Under the pieces are notes generated by a model. The model did not search any database, was not told the DNA's origin, and saw only the letters and a list, made by a program, of their open reading frames with translations. 32,644 bases of DNA from an uncultured Robiginitomaculum sp. GTDB taxonomy: Bacteria > Pseudomonadota > Alphaproteobacteria > Caulobacterales > Maricaulaceae. The stretch spans positions 1 to 32,644 of the forward strand of contig CALLBH010000020.1 of the NCBI GenBank assembly GCA_938001945.1, given 5' to 3'. Every line of letters starts with the position of its first letter. Position 1 is the first letter of the stretch. A program made the position numbers and the translations under genes. Positions 4,605-32,644 of this stretch are shown here, piece after piece.

Positions 4605-5122
4605 TAAAGTGAACCGCCATTACCACCAGGAATCAAAATATTAACGCGGCCCGTTCTGCACGCGCGGCCTTTACAATCGCCTTGCATTTTGGCCTCTTTA
4701 TTGGCCAGATTATAGATAAGCTTTGACCCTGTACCGACATTGCCTGAGCTGTCTTCAAGAATAACATCACCTGTGATGGTGATGATGTCGCGCGTCTCTT
4801 CATAAACGCCTTTGGCGCCGCGCACTTTTTCGTTCGGCGTGATGTAGTAGAAATTACCGACGGCATCGATACGCTCAATTGGACCTAACCGGCCCCCGCC
4901 CAAATCTGCGCGATATACATTCATCGTATCCGCCAAAATCCGCACATCCCCTTGCTGAACCTGAACTTGGCCCGTTAATACGGTAAGGCGGCCTTTATAA
5001 TCTGCTTTATCCGCATCGATTTTTGTCGGCACATCCCCTGTCCCAAATGCAAATTGAGCCTGCGCCGGCGCTGCAGCGGCGAGGCCGAGTGCTGCAATCA
5101 AACTTACGGTCATTATCTTCAT
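4604..5122 (-). CDS. lptA: LptA/OstA-like periplasmic LPS transport protein
   Basis: Signal peptide MKIMTVSLIAALGLAAAAPAQAQ, OstA-like repeats (IDADKADYKGRLTVLTGQVQVQQGDVRILADTMNVY), position between lptC and lptB. Confidence 0.9.
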   Translation of the reverse strand: MKIMTVSLIAALGLAAAAPAQAQFAFGTGDVPTKIDADKADYKGRLTVLTGQVQVQQGDVRILADTMNVYRADLGGGRLGPIERIDAVGNFYYITPNEKVRGAKGVYEETRDIITITGDVILEDSSGNVGTGSKLIYNLANKEAKMQGDCKGRACRTGRVNILIPGGNGGSL

Positions 5123-5123
5123 T

Positions 5124-5801
5124 CTAATTCTCCGTTTCAGGGTCGTCTTGAGAGGCAGGCTCACGCCGCAGATCCTCTGGATATATTATTGCTTTAACAT
5201 TGTTCTCAAAAATATAACGTGAATAATCCTCAAGGATTTGATAGCGCTCGCCCTCAACTGTGCCGAAATTTCCGACGCATTTGATCGGCTCATCGCCGGT
5301 GACGCGGCGCTCTGCGGTGAAAATCTTAGCGTGTGTGGTATCGCAGCTATATCCATCATCCGTGCGCACTTTAACATCGGCCCGCAACTCCATGATCTGA
5401 GCTTTGGAATCGTAAAGCCCTTCTAGCGCCGTAACACTGGACTCAGGCGCGCCGTCTAATCGGCGAAATGTCAGCACAGGCTTAACCAGTTTAACAGCGT
5501 CAGGGTTATCCATCGCGCGCGTCGCATATTCAGCGGTCAGTGCATATGGCACGCCCTGCCCGTCAAGTCCTGTATAGCGTGGATTGGTCATGCGCACGGC
5601 TTCGCCGCCCGGTCCGGTATCGATCTGTTCGGCTCCGATGCCGCGCGACATGTAAAACGCTAATAGTCCCAAAATACACCCTGCTCCCAGGACAAATGCC
5701 AAACGCAGTATTGCGACAAACCTCGTATGCCGCTTCGCCGCAGTCAGCGTCAGAGAGCGCTTAGGTTCCCATAACGTATCTGATGGTGTCGCGGCGTTCA
5801 T
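5124..5801 (-). CDS. lptC: LPS export system protein LptC
   Basis: Single N-terminal TM followed by an LptC-like domain (MTNPRYTGLDGQGVPYALTAEYA...); gene order rnd-lptC-lptA-lptB. Confidence 0.85.
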   Translation of the reverse strand: MNAATPSDTLWEPKRSLTLTAAKRHTRFVAILRLAFVLGAGCILGLLAFYMSRGIGAEQIDTGPGGEAVRMTNPRYTGLDGQGVPYALTAEYATRAMDNPDAVKLVKPVLTFRRLDGAPESSVTALEGLYDSKAQIMELRADVKVRTDDGYSCDTTHAKIFTAERRVTGDEPIKCVGNFGTVEGERYQILEDYSRYIFENNVKAIIYPEDLRREPASQDDPETEN

Positions 5802-5806
5802 AATGA

Positions 5807-6436
5807 CTAATCGTTACGACGGAAGCTGTGGGAGAATATATCAATCCCGTCCCAGCCTAGGCGATCCAGCGTCGTGCGGGTGGGAAGAAAATCGAAGCAA
5901 GCTTTGGCTACATCCATGCGTCCTTCGCGTAAAAGGCGGCCAATGAAAACACGGCGCAATTGATGTAAATAGAGCACATCCGAAGCGGCATATTCTTGCT
6001 GCGCCTTTGACAATGTATCACTTGCCCAATCGCTGCTTTGTTGCTGTTTGGATAAATCAATACTCAGCAGTTCTTTGCATAAAGCCTTAAGGCCATGAGA
6101 ATCCGTATATGTGCGCGTCAGACCCGAGGCAATCTTAGTACAAAAGAGCGGCATGCAATCGACGCCCAAATCACGCTGCATGATCGCCACATCGAAACGG
6201 GCAAAGTGAAAGATTTTCTCAACATTAGGATTGGCCATCAAGGCTTTCAGGTTCGGGCAATCATATGTGTCGCGGTCCATCTGCACAAGATGCGCGTCAC
6301 CGTCGCCTGAGGAGAGCTGCACAAGACATAATTTATCGCGCACAAGCGACAAGCCCTGCGTCTCGGTATCCACCGCTACAGCGTCGCCAAAATCCAGCCC
6401 TGCTGGAATGTCGTGTTTGTGCAGATGAATAGCCAT
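5807..6436 (-). CDS. rnd: Ribonuclease D family 3'-5' exonuclease
   Basis: DEDD motifs: AVAVDTETQGLS, HFARFDVAIM, YAASDVLYLHQL. Start set at MAIHLHKHDIP (6436). Confidence 0.85.
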   Translation of the reverse strand: MAIHLHKHDIPAGLDFGDAVAVDTETQGLSLVRDKLCLVQLSSGDGDAHLVQMDRDTYDCPNLKALMANPNVEKIFHFARFDVAIMQRDLGVDCMPLFCTKIASGLTRTYTDSHGLKALCKELLSIDLSKQQQSSDWASDTLSKAQQEYAASDVLYLHQLRRVFIGRLLREGRMDVAKACFDFLPTRTTLDRLGWDGIDIFSHSFRRND

Positions 6437-6585
6437 AAAGATGTGTCCTGTTGATTTAGCTATGGACGTAACGAAGCCAAAGCTAAAACTCAAGCCGATT
6501 GCGCGGCGCGAAGACTTACAATGCTTTTAGAATAAGCTGCTCGAAAATCGCTCCTCGCTCGCGACTTCTGTGCTAAACGCTGTGC

Positions 6586-7614
6586 ATGACACAACACCTT
6601 ACAGACGCGCAGAAATACGACATCATCGCCGCGAAAGACAAATCTTATGATGGCGTGTTTTTCGTGGGCGTTCTCACGACAGCGATTTTCTGCCGCCCGG
6701 GGTGTCCGGCGCGCGTGCCCAATGCCGAGAATTGCCAATATTACGATACGGCATATGATGCTTTAAAAGCGGGCTATCGCGCCTGCAAGAAATGTCACCC
6801 CGCCAGTCACAGCGCCCAAGACGGACCGCTAGTCAAACGTCTTATCGCTTTGGTCGAAGATGACCCCGCTAGAGTGTGGCGTGAGGGCGATTTAAAAGCC
6901 ATCGGGATTGACCCGTCCACGGCAAGGCGGCAATTCAAGCGTAGATTTGGTATGAGTTTCACCGCCTATGCCCGCGCGCGCAGATTGGCATTGGGACTTA
7001 AGACACTCGCGAAAGGCGGAGATATGATCGAGGCACAATTGGCATCGGGATATGAAAGCGAGAGCGGGTTTCGCAAGGCTTTCGGCAATGCGTTCGGCGC
7101 CGCGTCCGGCGATACGCTCTATGTCGACTGGATCGACACCCCGTACGGACCAATGATCGCGGTCGCCAGCGCCGAGGCTTTATTCTTGCTCGAATTCACA
7201 GACCGCGTGAAACTTGATCGGCAAATGCAGCGCGTTGCGAAAAAGAACCGCGTGAACATCACCGCGGGGCGCACGGCTATTCATGATCAAATTGCGGGCG
7301 AGTTAGAGCTTTATTTCAAAGGCAAACTGACGGAATTTAAAACGCCGCTAGCCCTTACTGGAACAGATTTCCAAAAGACAACATGGCACGCATTACTGCG
7401 TATTCCCTATGGCCAGACCAAAAGTTATGCCGAGCTCGCCGAGACGGTCGGCAACCCCAAGAGCTTTCGCGCCGTTGCGAATAGTAATGCTAATAATGGA
7501 CTGGCGCTGATCGTACCGTGTCACCGCGTCATCGCCAAAGACGGTACGCTGGGGGGGTATGCGGGCGGTTTAGACCGCAAACAAAAACTGCTGGATCTAG
7601 AGCGCGGAGACTAA
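6586..7614 (+). CDS. ada: Bifunctional Ada: phosphotriester methyltransferase/AraC-type regulator plus O6-methylguanine-DNA methyltransferase
   Basis: N-terminal Cys motif FCRPGCPAR...CKKCHP, HTH region, C-terminal active site IVPCHRVI. Confidence 0.93.
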   Translation: MTQHLTDAQKYDIIAAKDKSYDGVFFVGVLTTAIFCRPGCPARVPNAENCQYYDTAYDALKAGYRACKKCHPASHSAQDGPLVKRLIALVEDDPARVWREGDLKAIGIDPSTARRQFKRRFGMSFTAYARARRLALGLKTLAKGGDMIEAQLASGYESESGFRKAFGNAFGAASGDTLYVDWIDTPYGPMIAVASAEALFLLEFTDRVKLDRQMQRVAKKNRVNITAGRTAIHDQIAGELELYFKGKLTEFKTPLALTGTDFQKTTWHALLRIPYGQTKSYAELAETVGNPKSFRAVANSNANNGLALIVPCHRVIAKDGTLGGYAGGLDRKQKLLDLERGD

Positions 7615-8597
7615 TCGTCAGGATAAAGGTCTATCGTGGAGAGCACATTTTCGCCTTTGGCAGCGCGATAGCGCTCAACGGTAAAGCCTTTACGCTCCAA
7701 TAAGTCGGGCAAATTATCAGGCCCGATTAGGTGTCCCACGCCAACAACGACCAGAACAGTGCCACTTTCATCCATGCGTCCGGCGAGCACATCGGCCCAG
7801 CGGCGAGAGCGCGACGAGAACACAGCTTCATAGGCCAGCGGTTCACGATCATAATAAGGCGTTACAACCTCGGACCCTATGCGTTCTAAATCCCCTGCTA
7901 ACCACGCACGAATAAGTGTCTGCATTTGCTGCGGCAGATCATTTTGATTGATAAGCGTATCGCGCAATGCCGCCATTTGCATTTCATCGGGCAAAGAGAC
8001 GGAGGCTAGCAAATGCTCCTCCATTGTCTCTAGATAGGCAATATATTTACCGCTCGCCTGCGCGCGCGCGAGAAGCTTTGTATCTGCTCCAAAGTCACTG
8101 CGGTAACCCTCTCTCTTCAAAAGACTCGCGGTTATAATATCAGCGGCGAGCCACGGCTTGTAATTATCAAATGTCCCTTCCGGTAGATCGCTATTGAGGG
8201 TCGCCGCAAAGAGAAGTTTACCTTCATACCCAGAAAGCTCTCGCGACAAACCCGTTGAGGTCAAGTAATATCCATATTGCGAAATAATCAGCGACGCTTC
8301 ACGCTGCGCGGCCTCATCATTCGAGGTCTCGAAATACACCGTACCGGCGCGCGCGAAAACATCATCTAAGTCTTTGCGTGACCAATCTGTATCTTCGGGC
8401 AGCATATGAACCGCGCCGTAAATATAAATCTCGGCCTGCATCTCTGTGCCCGTTACTTTGAATATAGGCGGCCCGTCATTACGCGCCCGCGCCGCCGCAA
8501 TTTTGGCCTGAACATCAGGGTCGTTTTGACAGGCATTAAGCGCAAAGGCTGAGGCGATCAGGGCGCAAATACATATCCATTTTATTACGGTTTTCAT
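7611..8597 (-). CDS. TraB/GumN family lipoprotein
   Basis: Lipobox in [28 protein letters not shown] near the N-terminus and [25 protein letters not shown] at the C-terminus are TraB/GumN signatures. Confidence 0.85.
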
Positions 8598-8658
8598 CAG
8601 CAGACTCTAGCGCTCCACGGTTGCGCGCCTGTATGGAACAGTCTACTACCGCGCGCAA

Positions 8659-8735
<77 letters not shown>

Positions 8736-8802
8736 CTTTTTTTTGTGCGGGTTGCCGCCCGCCAACCTAACCCGCGCAGGTTATTTCCCGGATCGGCTAT
8801 GC

Positions 8803-8874
8803 CGATACTCGCCTCTTGTGTGTTTCCCGTCTTGTGTGTTTCCCGGTTCATCTTCAACGATACTCGCCTCTTGT
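8803..8874. repeat. Short nested direct repeats
   Basis: TCTTGTGTGTTTCCCG twice in exact tandem (8814-8829, 8830-8845), flanked by two copies of CGATACTCGCCTCTTGT (8803-8819, 8858-8874). Confidence 0.9.
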
Positions 8875-8888
8875 TTATTTCGTAATAT

Positions 8889-8912
8889 AAAAAACCCGAC
8901 CAAATGGCCGGG
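8889..8912 (-). terminator. Rho-independent terminator for the SSS symporter gene
   Basis: Minus strand reads CCCGGCC-ATTT-GGTCGGG-TTTTTT: 7-bp stem (one G-U pair), 4-nt loop and U-tract, just past the stop of the 8934-10415 gene. Confidence 0.85.
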
Positions 8913-8933
8913 CTCTTATGTTGTGTGCTAATT

Positions 8934-10415
8934 CTACGAAAACACATCAGCGTCTTCGGGGACGGGGTTTTTGCTAAATACATTATGCGCGTCCCAAATG
9001 GGTTTCTTTCCAAGTACGAGACTAATCAACAAAGCCGAGAAGACGGCGAGGAAAAGCGTAATTGCCATGAGGTGGATGTAATGCAGATCAATATTTTGCT
9101 CTGCGCCTAATGGGTTTGTTGCAACGCCGTAGAACACAAGCCCAATAACAACCCCGGCAATCATGGCGTAGGGGTTTACGTTTTTGAACAATAGTCCAAC
9201 AACAAACGCCGACAAGATTGGCATTGAGAGCAGGCCGTAAAGCTGTTGCACTGTATTGATGATGCTTTGCTCAGGATTATTGAAAATCGGAATCATGATG
9301 AAGGCCAAGACGACCATGGTGATAGACACCCACAGAGACAAGCGTTTCACATTTGGTTTTTTGTTGATGTAAGTCTCGTGAATATCGACCACCCACAGCG
9401 CAGCGGAAGCGTTGAGGATAGAATTAAATGTCGTCAGCACGGCGGCGGCAATCGCGGCAGCAAATGCACCGGACAACCAGACGGGCAAGAGATCACCGAC
9501 GACACGGCCATATGTCGCATCACCGATATCACCATAAAGTTTGAACGCGACGATACCGGGGAGCACAATGATTGGTGGCACGATGAGCAGGCGAATACCG
9601 GCTGCGGCGAGAATACCTTTTTGAGCTTCTTTGACGCTGGGTGACGCCATGGCGCGCTGCGTGATGGTTTGGTTTGTTGACCAATAGAACATCTGAATAA
9701 AGAGCATTCCGGTAAACAGCGTCGCAAATGGGATATCAGAGTCCGGCGCGCCGATGAGCGTTAAGCGCTCGGCCGGTATGCCTGTAAAATCCCAATCAAT
9801 GGCGTTAAGCGCCATAAGCGTCACGACGATGGCAAGGCTAAGCAGTAATATACCGGAGAACGTATCCGACACCGCAACGGCGCGAAGGCCGCCAAAAATA
9901 GCATAGGCCGAACCGACAACCGCGAAGAGGAGCGCGATAATATAAAGGTTCACATCTATGCCAAACATGGACTGCATAAACAGCGAGCCGCCATAGAGAA
10001 TAGCTGGAAGGAAAATGAAAATATTACCCAGCAGGAACAAAATCGAAATTAGCGCGCGAATATGCGGGTTATGGTAACGCTTCTCGAGCAGCTCCGTTGT
10101 CGTCGTGCATTTATATTTGTAATAAACAGGAATAAAGATGAAGGTCAGCATAATCAGTCCAACCACGGCAGCAAGTTCCCACCACGCCAGAAGCGCCATT
10201 TGATTGCCATTCATTCCGACCAATTGATCGGTTGATAAATTAGTGAGCGTGATAGAGCCCGCCACGAAATACCATTTCAATCCACCGCCCGCGAGGAAAT
10301 ATTCTTTCTCTCCGTCGCTGTCTTGGCGCGCGCCGCGGCAGAACCAATAGGTCACGAATGCAATAAGGGCTGTAATGCCTAAAAATACTGCAAATTGAAT
10401 GGGTTGTAATTCCAT
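8934..10415 (-). CDS. Sodium:solute symporter (SSS) family, SglT-like sugar transporter
   Basis: 493-aa polytopic protein; YFLAGGGLKWYFVAGSITLTNLSTDQLVGMNG and AIFGGLRAVAVSDTFSG are SSS/SglT-like; adjacent to alpha-galactosidase. Confidence 0.9.
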   Translation of the reverse strand: MELQPIQFAVFLGITALIAFVTYWFCRGARQDSDGEKEYFLAGGGLKWYFVAGSITLTNLSTDQLVGMNGNQMALLAWWELAAVVGLIMLTFIFIPVYYKYKCTTTTELLEKRYHNPHIRALISILFLLGNIFIFLPAILYGGSLFMQSMFGIDVNLYIIALLFAVVGSAYAIFGGLRAVAVSDTFSGILLLSLAIVVTLMALNAIDWDFTGIPAERLTLIGAPDSDIPFATLFTGMLFIQMFYWSTNQTITQRAMASPSVKEAQKGILAAAGIRLLIVPPIIVLPGIVAFKLYGDIGDATYGRVVGDLLPVWLSGAFAAAIAAAVLTTFNSILNASAALWVVDIHETYINKKPNVKRLSLWVSITMVVLAFIMIPIFNNPEQSIINTVQQLYGLLSMPILSAFVVGLLFKNVNPYAMIAGVVIGLVFYGVATNPLGAEQNIDLHYIHLMAITLFLAVFSALLISLVLGKKPIWDAHNVFSKNPVPEDADVFS

Positions 10416-12835: not shown

Positions 12836-15778
12836 CTAAAACTTACCGCGTACTCCGAATGTGTAACGGCTACCCGTATCTTCATAAGTCAAGAAACGGT
12901 TCTCAAAACGTGAGAAATCGCGCGTATCTTCATCCGTAATATTAATGCCTTCACCAAAGACTTGGAAGTTATCATTAATGTCATATGCGGCCGACAGATC
13001 GACTTGACCATAAGCTTCTCGCTGACGCGGCTCACCTTGATCAGAGAAGGCTGCAACAAGGAACTCATCGCGATAATTATATGAAATACGCGCCGAAACT
13101 GGCCCTTGCTCATAAAACCCACTGACATTGAAGCTGTGCGGTGAAAGACCATTATAATCCAGATCTTCGTTGCCGGATCCTTCAAGACGATCAATGTCAC
13201 TTGTCACATATGTATAATTTGCCGTCACGCCAAAGCCATTATCAAAGGCTTTTTGCCCCGCAAGTTCTAGACCCGCAATGCTGCCAGTCTCGCCATTACG
13301 CGTCCGCGTATCTTGGAACGCGATTTGGCGCGTAATATCAGCAGCTGTCGGATTTGAGGCGTTTCCGGCCGGGAAAACAACCGGACGAATGATTTCAACA
13401 GTCCGCGCCTCGAGGAAATTGTCAAAATCTTTGTAGAACGCTGAAACTCCGATGAAACTTAAATCATCAATATACCATTCAAACGCTGTATCGAGGTTGA
13501 TCGACTCAAAGGCCTCAAGTGTCGGATTACCACCCGTACTTGTCGGCGCATTTGCACGCCCGCCAAATGAGTTTGCAACACCCAGCGATGTCAAAGTCGG
13601 ACGCGTTACGGTTTTTGACACTGCAAAACGCAAAATCTTATCATCGGTCAGGTCAAAGCGAATATTCGCTGATGGTAAGAAATTTGTGTAACTATTACTG
13701 ATGGAAACATCGATCGGCGCAGCAAAATTCGCAACCAATTGTGTATCACCATCAGACTCGCGGAACTGCACAACAGGTTGATCGACACCCGAAGAGTCCG
13801 TTTCGGTATGCGCGACGCGGAAACCAAAGTTTGCCGCATATGGGACGCCTGATAGCGTGCTTTCCCATGACGAGTTGAAGAACACTGCCGTCACTGTCTC
13901 ATCTACCGCAAAGCTGCCTGCTGGATTGAATTCAGGGTCGTAAAATCCATAAATCGAACCAGAAGCGTCGCGGCGGGCACGAAGCTCTGCATCTGATAGT
14001 GCAGCGCGGCCTGATCTGTTTGGATCAGAAATTGCGGCGTCAGAATTAAGCTGTCCGAACGCGTCTTCGAATGTCGCTGTCAAGAACTGAAGCGGAATGC
14101 GATCAGAGCCAGAGACGCCATCGAGGAAGCCACTAAAATCAACAGGTGTTAAGATGCTGTCGTCGAAGTCTGTCGCGTAACCACAATAGGCACAGAAAAT
14201 TCCGCCGCCTTGCGTCGGCGAGAAATTATCGAATAAATCGCGTGATTTCGTGCGGTCTGAATAGCTGGCGCCCAAGCTGATTACAGTATTCATGTCATTA
14301 TTCGCAGCCCAGTCAAATTGACCTTTGGCTTCGAAGACTTCGTCTTCAACAACTGTGCGATTTACATTCACGAAGTGGAGGCGCTGAATGCTGGCGTCTT
14401 GCGCGCCCACAATATTTGTAAGTGTTGTTATCTCTGCATCCCCAGGAAGCTGAATGAGCGGAGACTCAGGTGCCAAAGCCCCCAGAACGACGAACGGGTT
14501 GATACCGTCACGGTCTGCTTTGGACGTCGAGACATCGAAATTGGCCGTCAATGTATCGCTGACATCCCAATCCACATTTGCGCCAAACATATATGTCTCA
14601 GCCTTGCGGTTGTTCGACGTCAACACATTATCATTTTGTGATGGACCGGTTCCTGTAATCCCCGGATTATTGGCAAGGAAATCAAGTCCCGGGCGCGAGA
14701 ATGACGTTACAGTCCCATTTGCATCGATGACGGGGTTGATGAATGGCGGGCTGAAAAAGCCTGAGAACTGCGTGTCGAAGGACTGAATGTCGAATTCAGA
14801 ATATAACCCATCAACCGTAATTTCTAACGTATCTGTGGGGCGGAATTGGACAGTTCCGTTCACCGTCGTGCGCTGACGGTCTTGGATATCTCGGCTAACA
14901 ATAGCTTGCTGCTGAACACGCGCATTTGCTGGAAGGCCCGTGCCGATTAGCGTCGCGCCTTCATTTGGATCAATCGTGCCATCACCATTGACATCCGACT
15001 CCGTAGCCGGATCAAAAATGAAACCGCTCGTATCAAAAATATCAAGACCTGTTGCATCCGGCGAGCCATCAATAAAGCCTGCACCGCCGCGCGCGGAGAA
15101 GCCATTTGTCAAAACACGGTCACGCTGTGCGCTGCGATCTGAGTAGGAAATACCGCCAGAGAAACCGAGCGTGCGATCATCATTTGCCCATGACCCAACG
15201 AGCGACACCTCAGGGGATACTTCTTCGCGAAGTGTATCATATGTGCCGGAAACGGACCCGCTAAAACTCGTCCCTGCGCCGCCGCTGAGCGGACGGTTCG
15301 TGACGATGTTGACGTTTGCGCCAATACCACCTGATTGCAGATTTGGAGAATATGTCTTGAAGACCTCTGCGCGCTGAATAATGTCAGAAGACAGAACGTC
15401 AAATGAGAATTCGCGGCCATCATTATCTGTCGCCAGCGTGCGGCCATTCAAAGTGACCGTGTTAAATTCTGGGCCAAGACCCCGAACGGTAATAAATTGA
15501 CCTTCGCCGCCCGAGCGATCAATGGCGACGCCTGTAATGCGCTGCAAGGACTCCGCAATGTTATTGTCAGGGAATTTGCCAACATCCTCGGCTGTGATGG
15601 CATCGACCACCTGCGTGGAGTCGCGCTTAACATCCAAAGACTGTTTTAGGCTGCTCCGAATACCTGTTGCAATGACTTCATCTTCAAATGGTGCGTCCTG
15701 CGCTTGCGCCGGAACAGCAATAGCCATTGCTGCCGCAGCAACTGAACAGGCCAATATACTTTTACGAGTAAGTTTCAT
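12836..15778 (-). CDS. TonB-dependent receptor, carbohydrate type
   Basis: Signal peptide MKLTRKSILACSVAAAAMAIAVPAQAQ; plug domain (EDVGKFPDNNIAESLQRITGVAIDR...RGLGPEFNTVTLNGRTLA); C-terminal YTFGVRGKF. Start set at 15778. Confidence 0.93.
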   Translation of the reverse strand: MKLTRKSILACSVAAAAMAIAVPAQAQDAPFEDEVIATGIRSSLKQSLDVKRDSTQVVDAITAEDVGKFPDNNIAESLQRITGVAIDRSGGEGQFITVRGLGPEFNTVTLNGRTLATDNDGREFSFDVLSSDIIQRAEVFKTYSPNLQSGGIGANVNIVTNRPLSGGAGTSFSGSVSGTYDTLREEVSPEVSLVGSWANDDRTLGFSGGISYSDRSAQRDRVLTNGFSARGGAGFIDGSPDATGLDIFDTSGFIFDPATESDVNGDGTIDPNEGATLIGTGLPANARVQQQAIVSRDIQDRQRTTVNGTVQFRPTDTLEITVDGLYSEFDIQSFDTQFSGFFSPPFINPVIDANGTVTSFSRPGLDFLANNPGITGTGPSQNDNVLTSNNRKAETYMFGANVDWDVSDTLTANFDVSTSKADRDGINPFVVLGALAPESPLIQLPGDAEITTLTNIVGAQDASIQRLHFVNVNRTVVEDEVFEAKGQFDWAANNDMNTVISLGASYSDRTKSRDLFDNFSPTQGGGIFCAYCGYATDFDDSILTPVDFSGFLDGVSGSDRIPLQFLTATFEDAFGQLNSDAAISDPNRSGRAALSDAELRARRDASGSIYGFYDPEFNPAGSFAVDETVTAVFFNSSWESTLSGVPYAANFGFRVAHTETDSSGVDQPVVQFRESDGDTQLVANFAAPIDVSISNSYTNFLPSANIRFDLTDDKILRFAVSKTVTRPTLTSLGVANSFGGRANAPTSTGGNPTLEAFESINLDTAFEWYIDDLSFIGVSAFYKDFDNFLEARTVEIIRPVVFPAGNASNPTAADITRQIAFQDTRTRNGETGSIAGLELAGQKAFDNGFGVTANYTYVTSDIDRLEGSGNEDLDYNGLSPHSFNVSGFYEQGPVSARISYNYRDEFLVAAFSDQGEPRQREAYGQVDLSAAYDINDNFQVFGEGINITDEDTRDFSRFENRFLTYEDTGSRYTFGVRGKF

Positions 15779-29294: not shown

Positions 29295-29340
29295 TGGTGC
29301 CCCCACACGGACTTGAACCGCGGACCCCCTGATTACAAAA
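29295..29340 (-). other. 3' fragment of tRNA-Thr(TGT), candidate att site at the integrated element end
   Basis: Minus strand TTTTGTAATCAGGGGGTCCGCGGTTCAAGTCCGTGTGGGGGCACCA has anticodon-loop 3' part, variable loop, T-arm and acceptor 3' strand with CCA. The expected 5' half (CCTGA stem, D-arm, GCCCCCA acceptor) is not next to it. Confidence 0.75.
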
Positions 29341-29507
29341 CTAATTTAGGTTATTACTGCCGTTTACGTTCCATTACCCCACACGAGCATAAATATCTGA
29401 AACTATTGACAATTTTAGATTTTCACTACTCTACATGACTCTAAGGCACGTCACATTTCGCTGTGAATGTGCTTCCAAATTGCTTCCAAATTTGGATGGA
29501 GATTATT

Positions 29508-30692
29508 TTGAAGTTGATAAAGTCAAAGATTGATAGCCTTGAACTCACAGGCAAAGATCAATTCTATTGGGATGAGCAGTTAAAAGGTTTTGGCTTGCGG
29601 GTCTCGCCTAAGGGCAAAAAAACCTTTGTTGTGCAATACCGTCATGCGGGCCGGACACAGCGTTTCCGCATTGGTCATTATGGAAAGCTGACCGTCCATG
29701 ATGCGAGGCGCGACGCTAAGATCATGCTTGGTGAAATTGCCAAGGGGAAAAGCCCTGCAAAATTCATCGGTGAGGGCCGTAACTCGCCAACTTTGGAGAT
29801 TGTTGCAAAACGCTTTATCTCGGAACATGTTTCCATAAGACTAAAGCCTGCGACGCAATCAGATTATAGGCATAACTTAAAAGCTTATATCCTGCCTGCC
29901 TTGGGGGCGCGAAAAGTTGCTGATATTACGCATAAAGAGGTTCAGGCTTTGCATCTCAAAATGAAGGATACACCTACGCAAGCTAACCGTACAATAAGCG
30001 TGTTATCAAAAATATTTAACTTATGTGAAAAATGGGGTTTGCGCGATGGGGCTACGAATCCTTGCACCCAGATTGAGCGATATAAAGAGACACGCCGTCA
30101 TCGGTTTTTAGATGAGACGGAATTAGCTATTCTCTGGAAGACTTTGGACGATATTAAAAATGAAGGTCAGATTAGCCAATACGCAATAACGGCTTTTAAA
30201 CTCCTCATTCTAACAGGTTGCAGGCTTGGCGAAATAAGAACGCTCAAATGGAGTTATATAAAAGGAAACCGTGTGGAATTTCCCGATACGAAAACAGGTT
30301 ATAAGCGCTTGCCGCTAAACGCTGACACAATGCAAATCTTACGAGATACGATACGCCAAGAAGATAATGACTATGTGATATGCGGTGAGATTGCTGGAAA
30401 GCCTATTGTGAACTTACAAAAGTCATGGCGGCGTGTAAGGGCGAGGGCAGGGCTTGAGGACGTTAGAATACATGATTTGCGACATACTTTTGCCTCCCAT
30501 GCGGTTATGGGTGGAACGCCTTTAGCTGTTGTGAGTAAACTTTTGGGGCATTCACAAATCGCAACAACAATGCGATACGCGCATCTAGCCGATAAAGAAT
30601 TATTACAGGCCAGTGAAGGCATAGGTTCTATTTTAAAACAATCGAATCCTCGTAGAGATACCTCTGATAATATCCATTTCTTGAAACGATAA
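29508..30692 (+). CDS. Tyrosine recombinase/integrase (DUF4102-type N-terminus)
   Basis: FYWDEQLKGFGLRVSPKGKKTFVVQYRHAGRTQRFRIGHYGKLTVHDARRDAKIMLGEI; catalytic TGCRLGEIRTLKW, IHDLRHTFASHAV, LGHSQIATTMRYAHL. TTG 29508 with GGATGGAGA upstream, or ATG 29496, is the likely start; ORF opens at 29463. Confidence 0.93.
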   Translation: MKLIKSKIDSLELTGKDQFYWDEQLKGFGLRVSPKGKKTFVVQYRHAGRTQRFRIGHYGKLTVHDARRDAKIMLGEIAKGKSPAKFIGEGRNSPTLEIVAKRFISEHVSIRLKPATQSDYRHNLKAYILPALGARKVADITHKEVQALHLKMKDTPTQANRTISVLSKIFNLCEKWGLRDGATNPCTQIERYKETRRHRFLDETELAILWKTLDDIKNEGQISQYAITAFKLLILTGCRLGEIRTLKWSYIKGNRVEFPDTKTGYKRLPLNADTMQILRDTIRQEDNDYVICGEIAGKPIVNLQKSWRRVRARAGLEDVRIHDLRHTFASHAVMGGTPLAVVSKLLGHSQIATTMRYAHLADKELLQASEGIGSILKQSNPRRDTSDNIHFLKR

Positions 30693-30698
30693 GCTCAT

Positions 30699-31532
30699 AT
30701 GAACCTCGTAAAACTAAAGGCTGAATTAGCAGGGGCGGGGACTTGCCCCGTCTTATCTGAACACATACTCGATATGGCTGTGAAAATGCCAATCTTGCCA
30801 GATGATATAACCGCCATTGACGGGATGAACTTGATTCTGAGCCAGTTCTTTATGTCGCCTTATGCTGGATATTTTGAAAACAAGAAAACTAAGATTATTG
30901 AGGACACAAAGCTTGCCCCTGAACAAATTTATGACGTGTTTCAAGGCTTAGACTTTATGGCGAAAACGCATATTATGTACGCTCTAGTACCTCTCGTGAA
31001 TGAAGATGTAATTGATGGTTTTGAGGAGTTGAAAAAAATAGAGAGGGCGGCGCAAAAGTTAAAAGATTTACTTCCAGCAAAAGACAGCACGCTTTACACC
31101 ATTCTGGCAATGGTTGAACAAACACAATCGCATTCACATCTACAATTTGATGAAAACACAAATAACGCCGCGCTCTATTTTACTAATTTAGAGACTATGA
31201 TTGACGGGCTCATAAATCTACGCTCGGTCATTCCCCAAACAGCTATGGGGCAATTCATGAAGCTAGGCGTTAAAAGCCCAAAGGGTAATCTGGCTTTAAG
31301 AGTTTGGCTTGAACAGGCTTATGAGCTGTGGACGGGCGGTATGGGGCGCAATTTTAAACATGATGGCAAAGACGGCATAAATGGCAGAAAGCGCTTTACC
31401 GAATTTGCCTATAACTCTCTCATGATTATTCACCCCGCTATTACATATGCAAGCCTAGAACATGGCGTCAGGGCGTTGTTCGAAAGACGCTCTAAAACCA
31501 TTGCGGCTCTACACCCTAAAAACATCTCATAG
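30699..31532 (+). CDS. Hypothetical protein, mobile-element accessory, no recognised domain
   Basis: 277-aa ORF, 6 nt after the integrase stop and co-directional; predicted largely helical; no family recognised. Confidence 0.7.
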   Translation: MNLVKLKAELAGAGTCPVLSEHILDMAVKMPILPDDITAIDGMNLILSQFFMSPYAGYFENKKTKIIEDTKLAPEQIYDVFQGLDFMAKTHIMYALVPLVNEDVIDGFEELKKIERAAQKLKDLLPAKDSTLYTILAMVEQTQSHSHLQFDENTNNAALYFTNLETMIDGLINLRSVIPQTAMGQFMKLGVKSPKGNLALRVWLEQAYELWTGGMGRNFKHDGKDGINGRKRFTEFAYNSLMIIHPAITYASLEHGVRALFERRSKTIAALHPKNIS

Positions 31533-31816: not shown

Positions 31817-31982
31817 TAAGCTTGACGGTTGTTGAAGGCTATACTTACCCTCAACATAACCCCAGCTTTGACGCCTCCTTTAACGCCACCCGACCCCACT
31901 TTAACCCCTATTAAACCCATTAAAGGGCTATTTGAGGCAAGATTCGACCCTATCCGTTTATACGGCTATTTAACGTCAAAAA

Positions 31983-32624
31983 CCGATAAAGAATGCATTA
32001 AAAACCGTATTCAATAACGGACTAAAGATTGTGCAGATTAATGTGGTCTATTTTAAACGATAAATAATCGATAAAACCGATTAGGGTGTCGTTTAGCTAA
32101 TCGGTTATAACTCGATTTTTTACTCTTAATAAAGTGAGCGCTTTAATGCGCTATTTATAACCCTACCCATGACGCCAGCTAATACCCCTATTTGACCCCT
32201 CTAAAGGGTTATATAGCCCTCAAATGAGTCGATACGGTGTCGAGTCGTGTATCGATACATTTACCGATACTTTCCCGGTAATTGCCGATACCGTTCCCGT
32301 AAAATGACCCTGCGCTATCTTAGGGCTAAATAGGCCCCAACTTGGCCCTTACTGTCCCTATACTTGTATCGGCAATTTACCGCCTATAGGCGCTGAATAG
32401 GCAACAGAAGCCCTTTTGCATTTAAACCGATAAGTTTTGCGTAATAATGGGAATGATAGACGCGGTAATCCGATATACGCAAATAATACCCATAATAGCC
32501 CAAAACATACCCGTTAAAGGACGGTTCGAAATAGGGTCTAAATGTTATCCGATAACCATCATCCACATCGATGATGAGGTGCAAGCATCCGCTGCTCTTA
32601 TCCTCGGCTAAAGCCTTACCGATA
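31983..32624. repeat. Dispersed CCGATA hexamer repeats with inverted repeats, candidate iteron/control region
   Basis: CCGATA at 31983, 32264, 32285, 32427, 32470, 32549, 32619 and TATCGG at 32367. IR AACCGATTAG/CTAATCGGTT (32075-32084/32097-32106); IR AATTGCCGATAC/GTATCGGCAATT (32280-32291/32366-32377). Confidence 0.75.
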
Positions 32625-32644
32625 AACGGAACTGGTGCGGGTCG

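Follow-up and report, generated by a model that had tools for sequence, protein, structure and literature searches.

A conserved non-coding tract derived from inside a Rep_trans gene in an integrated island of Robiginitomaculum: a candidate rolling-circle origin without its initiator

INTRODUCTION

In plasmids of the pT181 family, which use initiators of the Rep_trans type (PF02486), the dso lies within the rep gene, and the initiator can do without the protein segment that this DNA specifies (PMC5703833). The same catalytic residues, given for Rep_trans/MOBT as D, D, YxK, and E, are found in the MOBT relaxases of Tn916, ICEBs1, and ICESt3, where the origin is located in or next to the nickase gene (PMC6499999). 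The iOriT hitchers are integrative mobilizable elements that have an oriT and no relaxase (PMC11389934). Gram-negative PICIs have int, alpA, and pri-rep genes, and their ori, located 3' of rep, comprises two sets of iterons flanking an AT-rich stretch (PMC6092414).

Here, we analyzed a stretch of 32,644 nucleotides (the window) from a MAG of an uncultured Robiginitomaculum sp. (2.13 Mb, 261 contigs, 77% complete); the window is apparently the whole contig. The initial annotation of this DNA described a CCGATA-rich non-coding tract at positions 31983–32624 and proposed that it could be an origin of a new type or a regulator array, fitting a replication origin, a packaging or transfer site, or an array bound by a Rep or Xis protein. 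The tract and its surroundings were compared with related islands and with the systems listed above.

RESULTS

Genomic setting and the island module

The tract lies at the right end of the contig. The genes to the left of the island are chromosomal, and the tract is preceded by the integrase end of an island integrated at a tRNA gene (Table 1). No intact tRNA gene was found at the attachment site by ARAGORN. The sequence of this site matches the 51-bp direct repeats bounding one of the related islands described below (L035; positions 1918 and 13198), and it was also found upstream of other integrases. The 277-aa protein encoded next to the integrase had no match in Pfam, PHROG, or NCBIfam, and its relatives were absent from viral contigs.

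Table 1 Features of the right part of the window
Feature	Position	Strand	Basis and remarks
Attachment site, tRNA 3' half	29295–29339	-	tRNA-Thr(UGU), read by eye from the sequence
Tyrosine integrase	29463–30692	+	PF00589, E 4e-26; arm-binding domain PF13356
277-aa protein, constant member of the module	30699–31532	+	Homologues in the equivalent position of L037 (45% identity) and L035 (27%)
AlpA-like HTH protein, 71 aa	31601–31816	+	PF12728, E 1.5e-9; PHROG excisionase/regulator
Conserved non-coding tract, candidate origin region	31817–32540	+	71% identity to L037; no ORF
rep-homologous part of the tract	31970–32240	+	nhmmer match to the interior of L035 rep
Best-conserved core	32049–32084	+	Three-way alignment (window, L037, L035); CGAT at 32058, 32069, and 32078
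Hairpin, candidate cruciform/nick region	32075–32106	+	Perfect 10-bp stem AACCGATTAG/CTAATCGGTT, 12-nt loop
Relic of RlxS/DUF3363 relaxase gene	32552–32644	-	Internal deletion and frame change

A search with the integrase revealed two close relatives, both in the genome of Hellea balneolensis DSM 19091 (loci L037 and L035); the window integrase is 69% and 62% identical to the Hellea integrases. Comparison with related elements, which the initial annotation had recommended, showed that the module together with the tract recurs in L037. The gene order of this locus (int, unknown gene, alpA, tract) is the same as in the window, the AlpA-like proteins are 83% identical, and the island ends in a tRNA-Gly gene. 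It is 10,032 bp long and bounded by perfect 55-bp direct (att) repeats, which indicates that it moved recently or is still mobile. A 1787-aa RTX-repeat protein and a 300-aa protein are encoded by the only large genes to the right of the tract, and no initiator gene was found in this island, which is complete between the att repeats. The 1787-aa cargo protein has 23 matches to RTX calcium-binding repeats (L037:9689-15052 in minus-strand locus coordinates; oriented 4949-10312). A 22-nt perfect direct repeat, CAATCTGCTCCCAAATTGCTGC, occurs a short way in from each end of this island (oriented positions 1699 and 11468), and its copies are possibly integrase arm sites.

The second Hellea island, L035, has the order int, unknown gene, alpA, followed by an intact gene for a 426-aa Rep and by cargo that includes an apparent DNA methylase (recognized by eye). 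This island is 11,280 bp long, and the 51-bp repeats bounding it carry one mismatch. Thus, islands with and without rep coexist in one Hellea genome. On scaffold 2 of H. balneolensis (L035, 1918–14557), two integrase-bearing islands seem to be arranged in tandem: the right-hand repeat of the first is directly followed by a second integrase gene (13376–14557).

The order int-alpA-Rep is common to more distant alphaproteobacterial islands. At loci L042, L059, L060, and L064, a conserved protein of about 117 aa without an assigned function is encoded between alpA and rep; it is absent from L035, L037, and the window. On a contig of Pseudovibrio stylochi (L100, 1927–5024), alpA-Rep is followed by a SIR2/HerA-type, defence-like gene pair (by eye).

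Enrichment of CCGATA

The count of CCGATA reported in the initial annotation was exact: seven copies are located on the + strand (31983, 32264, 32285, 32427, 32470, 32549, and 32619) and one TATCGG at 32367, making eight in 642 nt, and no ORF of note is present in this region. The boundaries had to be revised: on the left, the tract reaches as far as the stop codon of alpA (31817), and on the right, the final ~90 nt form a separate feature. The genome-wide frequency of the hexamer is 0.71 per kb (1510 sites in 2.126 Mb), so the tract is far denser. At this rate, about 0.46 CCGATA/TATCGG sites are expected per 642 nt, and the Poisson chance of finding at least eight is about 3e-8; a rough correction that takes in every hexamer and every 642-nt tile of the window raises this value to about 3e-3. 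Dinucleotide-shuffled versions of the tract contained 0.8 sites on average and four at most, and every other 642-nt stretch of the window had no more than three.

Other words are equally enriched, such as CCCTA and AATAG in the tract of the window and TAACCC in the homologous tract of L037; the sequence is therefore unusual in several respects, of which its CCGATA content is one. The hexamer is kept at two of the five sites alignable between the window and L037, against a background of 20% of hexamers, and in the right half of the tract, most CGATA sites have not kept their positions. Judged by this alignment, what is conserved in the tract is not CCGATA as such.

Conservation of the tract

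The tracts of the window and L037 are 71% identical over 710 aligned non-coding columns, compared with 38%–45% in shuffled controls, and share perfect runs of 26, 24, 18, and 17 nt. Between the same two loci, dS is saturated for int and amounts to 3.0 for the 277-aa gene and 1.29 for alpA. Since 71% identity persists while the synonymous sites of the neighboring genes are saturated or nearly so, the tract is likely held by selection on DNA. The comparison with alpA gave a marginal difference: third positions of codons for the same residue are kept in 31 of 54 cases (57%) versus 71% in the tract (p 0.04). Because alpA is less diverged than int, a younger recombined segment comprising the tract is a weaker but real alternative.

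Only one homologous tract, that of L037, was found among 137 genomes of the family and about 400 of the order, and the conservation therefore rests on one pair. Plasmid and phage records contained no match to the tract, and the core pattern, searched in viral contigs and 385 alphaproteobacterial genomes, matched the window alone. Relatives of AlpA in the genome and viral collections led to many int-alpA-Rep islands and to no further tract.

Derivation from inside rep and the sister Rep

The profile built from the two tracts matched, in collinear fashion, the middle of the intact rep of L035 (L035:4966-5279; nhmmer, 314 nt, E 3.5e-24). As in origins known to lie within rep, the location is gene-internal: the corresponding part of the tract (Table 1) derives from rep coding DNA. 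In this stretch, three-way identity at the first, second, and third codon positions of rep was 0.52/0.56/0.47, compared with 0.72/0.83/0.40 for int. Third positions are hardly less identical than the others, which agrees with a constraint acting on the DNA itself. A tblastn comparison of the L035 Rep protein with the tract yielded chance matches alone (E 0.18 and worse), so none of the other frames of the tract contains an intact rep; by these comparisons, the window has lost the coding sequence of this gene. A Rep_trans initiator on the same element is absent from the window and the complete L037 island and present in L035. The intact rep region of L035 contains 12 CGATA/TATCG sites versus a shuffle mean of 3.0.

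The best fold match of the L035 Rep was the RCR initiator 4CIJ (E 4e-9). PF02486 was matched by 9 of the 11 aligned Reps, and the L035 Rep alone falls below a match to this family. Residues D9, D130, Y241-x-K243, and E278 are invariant in the alignment (n = 11) and agree with the motif residues of Rep_trans/MOBT. One distant relative of Rep was found in viral contigs. The L035 Rep (4669–5949) has an insertion of about 55 residues (165–221), which is absent from most relatives, is encoded partly by tract-like DNA, and is predicted to be disordered (pLDDT ~30).

Conserved core and hairpin

The three CGAT sites of the core are spaced by 11 and 9 bp in the window and by 11 and 10 bp in both relatives, which corresponds to one helical turn. 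The hairpin starts at once 3' of this triple. Its DNA fold z-score was -3.2 in the window and -4.5 at the same place in L035; the value of -1.3 for L037 is weak and not significant. The arrangement fits a candidate Rep binding site beside a cruciform.

Regular spacing is confined to the core triple; the other sites are 3 to 161 bp apart and occur on both strands. An origin of the iteron-type theta class, used by an unrelated Rep whose gene lies past the end of the contig and which binds the tract, would agree with the enrichment of short words on both strands and with the low GC content, but outside the core the spacing is irregular, regular tandem direct repeats are missing, and the complete L037 island encodes no initiator beyond the tract. 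We consider such an origin very improbable.

The tract could also be conserved for regulation, as a set of operators for the AlpA-like protein or as a regulatory RNA controlling the island. Its position directly after alpA, its repeated C-rich words, its direct repeats about 280–310 bp apart, and the fact that certain stretches fold better than shuffles are consistent with such a role. However, the search of the tract against Rfam gave no match, promoter- and terminator-like sites occur at chance level, the folding z-scores are inconsistent between the tracts of the window and L037, and regulation leaves the derivation from inside rep unexplained. A regulatory function therefore appears improbable, and nothing was found in support of an array bound by AlpA or Xis.

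Relaxase relic and the possible decay of the tract

The right end of the window contains a relic of a relaxase gene, with 77% DNA identity over 74 nt to a gene of locus L058 whose protein is RlxS. Positions 32624–32644 match the same gene about 670 nt further upstream, in a changed frame; this jump of the final 21 nt at the contig end could be an assembly effect. The last CCGATA (32619) falls in the relic.

These data raise the question of whether the whole tract is debris, consisting of a decayed rep followed by a decayed relaxase, with its CGATA-richness inherited from the ancestral rep and no present function. Both rep-derived DNA and a broken relaxase are indeed present, the rep region of L035 is already CGATA-rich, and neither Rep nor relaxase was found in the window's own, 77% complete MAG. 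On the other hand, neutral DNA should have diverged like the saturated synonymous sites of int, and the identity between the two tracts, including the three longest perfect runs, remains. Decay without function is thus unlikely in our view, although it deserves more weight than regulation.

DISCUSSION

The best-supported part of the initial interpretation is that of a replication or transfer origin: the tract belongs to an int-alpA island, its DNA is conserved, and it derives from inside a rolling-circle rep gene. Its other parts fared less well: CCGATA is not what is conserved, no Rep was found in the contig or elsewhere in the incomplete MAG, and an array bound by AlpA or Xis has no support. 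The tract does not look like a new type of origin either and instead resembles a pT181-type origin without its gene. Taken together, the sequence data suggest, with an about even chance of being correct, that the tract is a rolling-circle origin kept without its initiator, which could function only with Rep provided by a sister island. Three points are inferred from these comparisons: the origin function of the tract, the action of Rep in trans, and the place of the nick.

Such an origin could have arisen and could operate as follows. In the ancestral island, the gene that encoded a rolling-circle initiator of the Rep_trans (pT181) type would have contained the origin. This gene would have ceased to encode Rep in the lineage leading to the window and L037, with the DNA signals kept. 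The integrase and the AlpA-like protein would excise the island, after which the CGATAA sites of the tract would be bound by Rep that a sister island provides within that cell. Rep could then extrude and nick the adjoining hairpin, leading to single-strand replication or transfer.

The two islands of H. balneolensis suggest a further step, namely that islands of this kind are replication satellites, which have shed the initiator, kept the origin, and depend for their copying or transfer on Rep from a sister island that shares the cell. This proposal is more tentative than that of an origin kept without its initiator, and we regard it as possible rather than probable.

Among the known systems, the pT181 family (PMC5703833) is similar in the fold and catalytic residues of the sister Rep, in the derivation of the tract from the interior of rep, and in the repeats beside a hairpin. 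Unlike these plasmids, the islands described here are chromosomally integrated and alphaproteobacterial, and rep is lost in the window and L037. The MOBT relaxases (PMC6499999) share the PF02486 catalytic residues and an origin in or next to the nickase gene, but the alphaproteobacterial Rep lacks an evident N-terminal HTH domain, and no conjugation genes were seen. With the iOriT hitchers (PMC11389934), the islands share an integrase, a candidate cis signal, and a presumable dependence on the proteins of another element. In the window, the integrase is present, the relaxase fragment is broken, and the origin is a candidate; unlike an oriT, this signal would stem from the interior of rep and serve as a Rep_trans origin of replication/transfer.

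Gram-negative PICIs and P4-like satellites (PMC6092414) are similar in the left-end integrase, alpA, the tRNA site, and small size. They differ in that the complete relatives found here have no primase-rep or recognized packaging genes and the tract is absent from the phage collection. Assignment of the island to the Gram-negative PICIs was considered and rejected: int and alpA are present, but pri-rep is absent from the window and the complete L037 island.

This case illustrates that a raw motif count can lead to a genuinely conserved non-coding element when what is conserved is not the motif. If the proposed interpretation is true, the islands of H. balneolensis would provide a concrete example of a small helper-satellite pair, in a type strain that can be cultured, and would show how an origin inside a gene can persist after the gene is gone. 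Rep_trans replication, mainly studied in plasmids and ICEs of Firmicutes, would then extend to integrated alphaproteobacterial islands, some of them with methylase or possible defence cargo.
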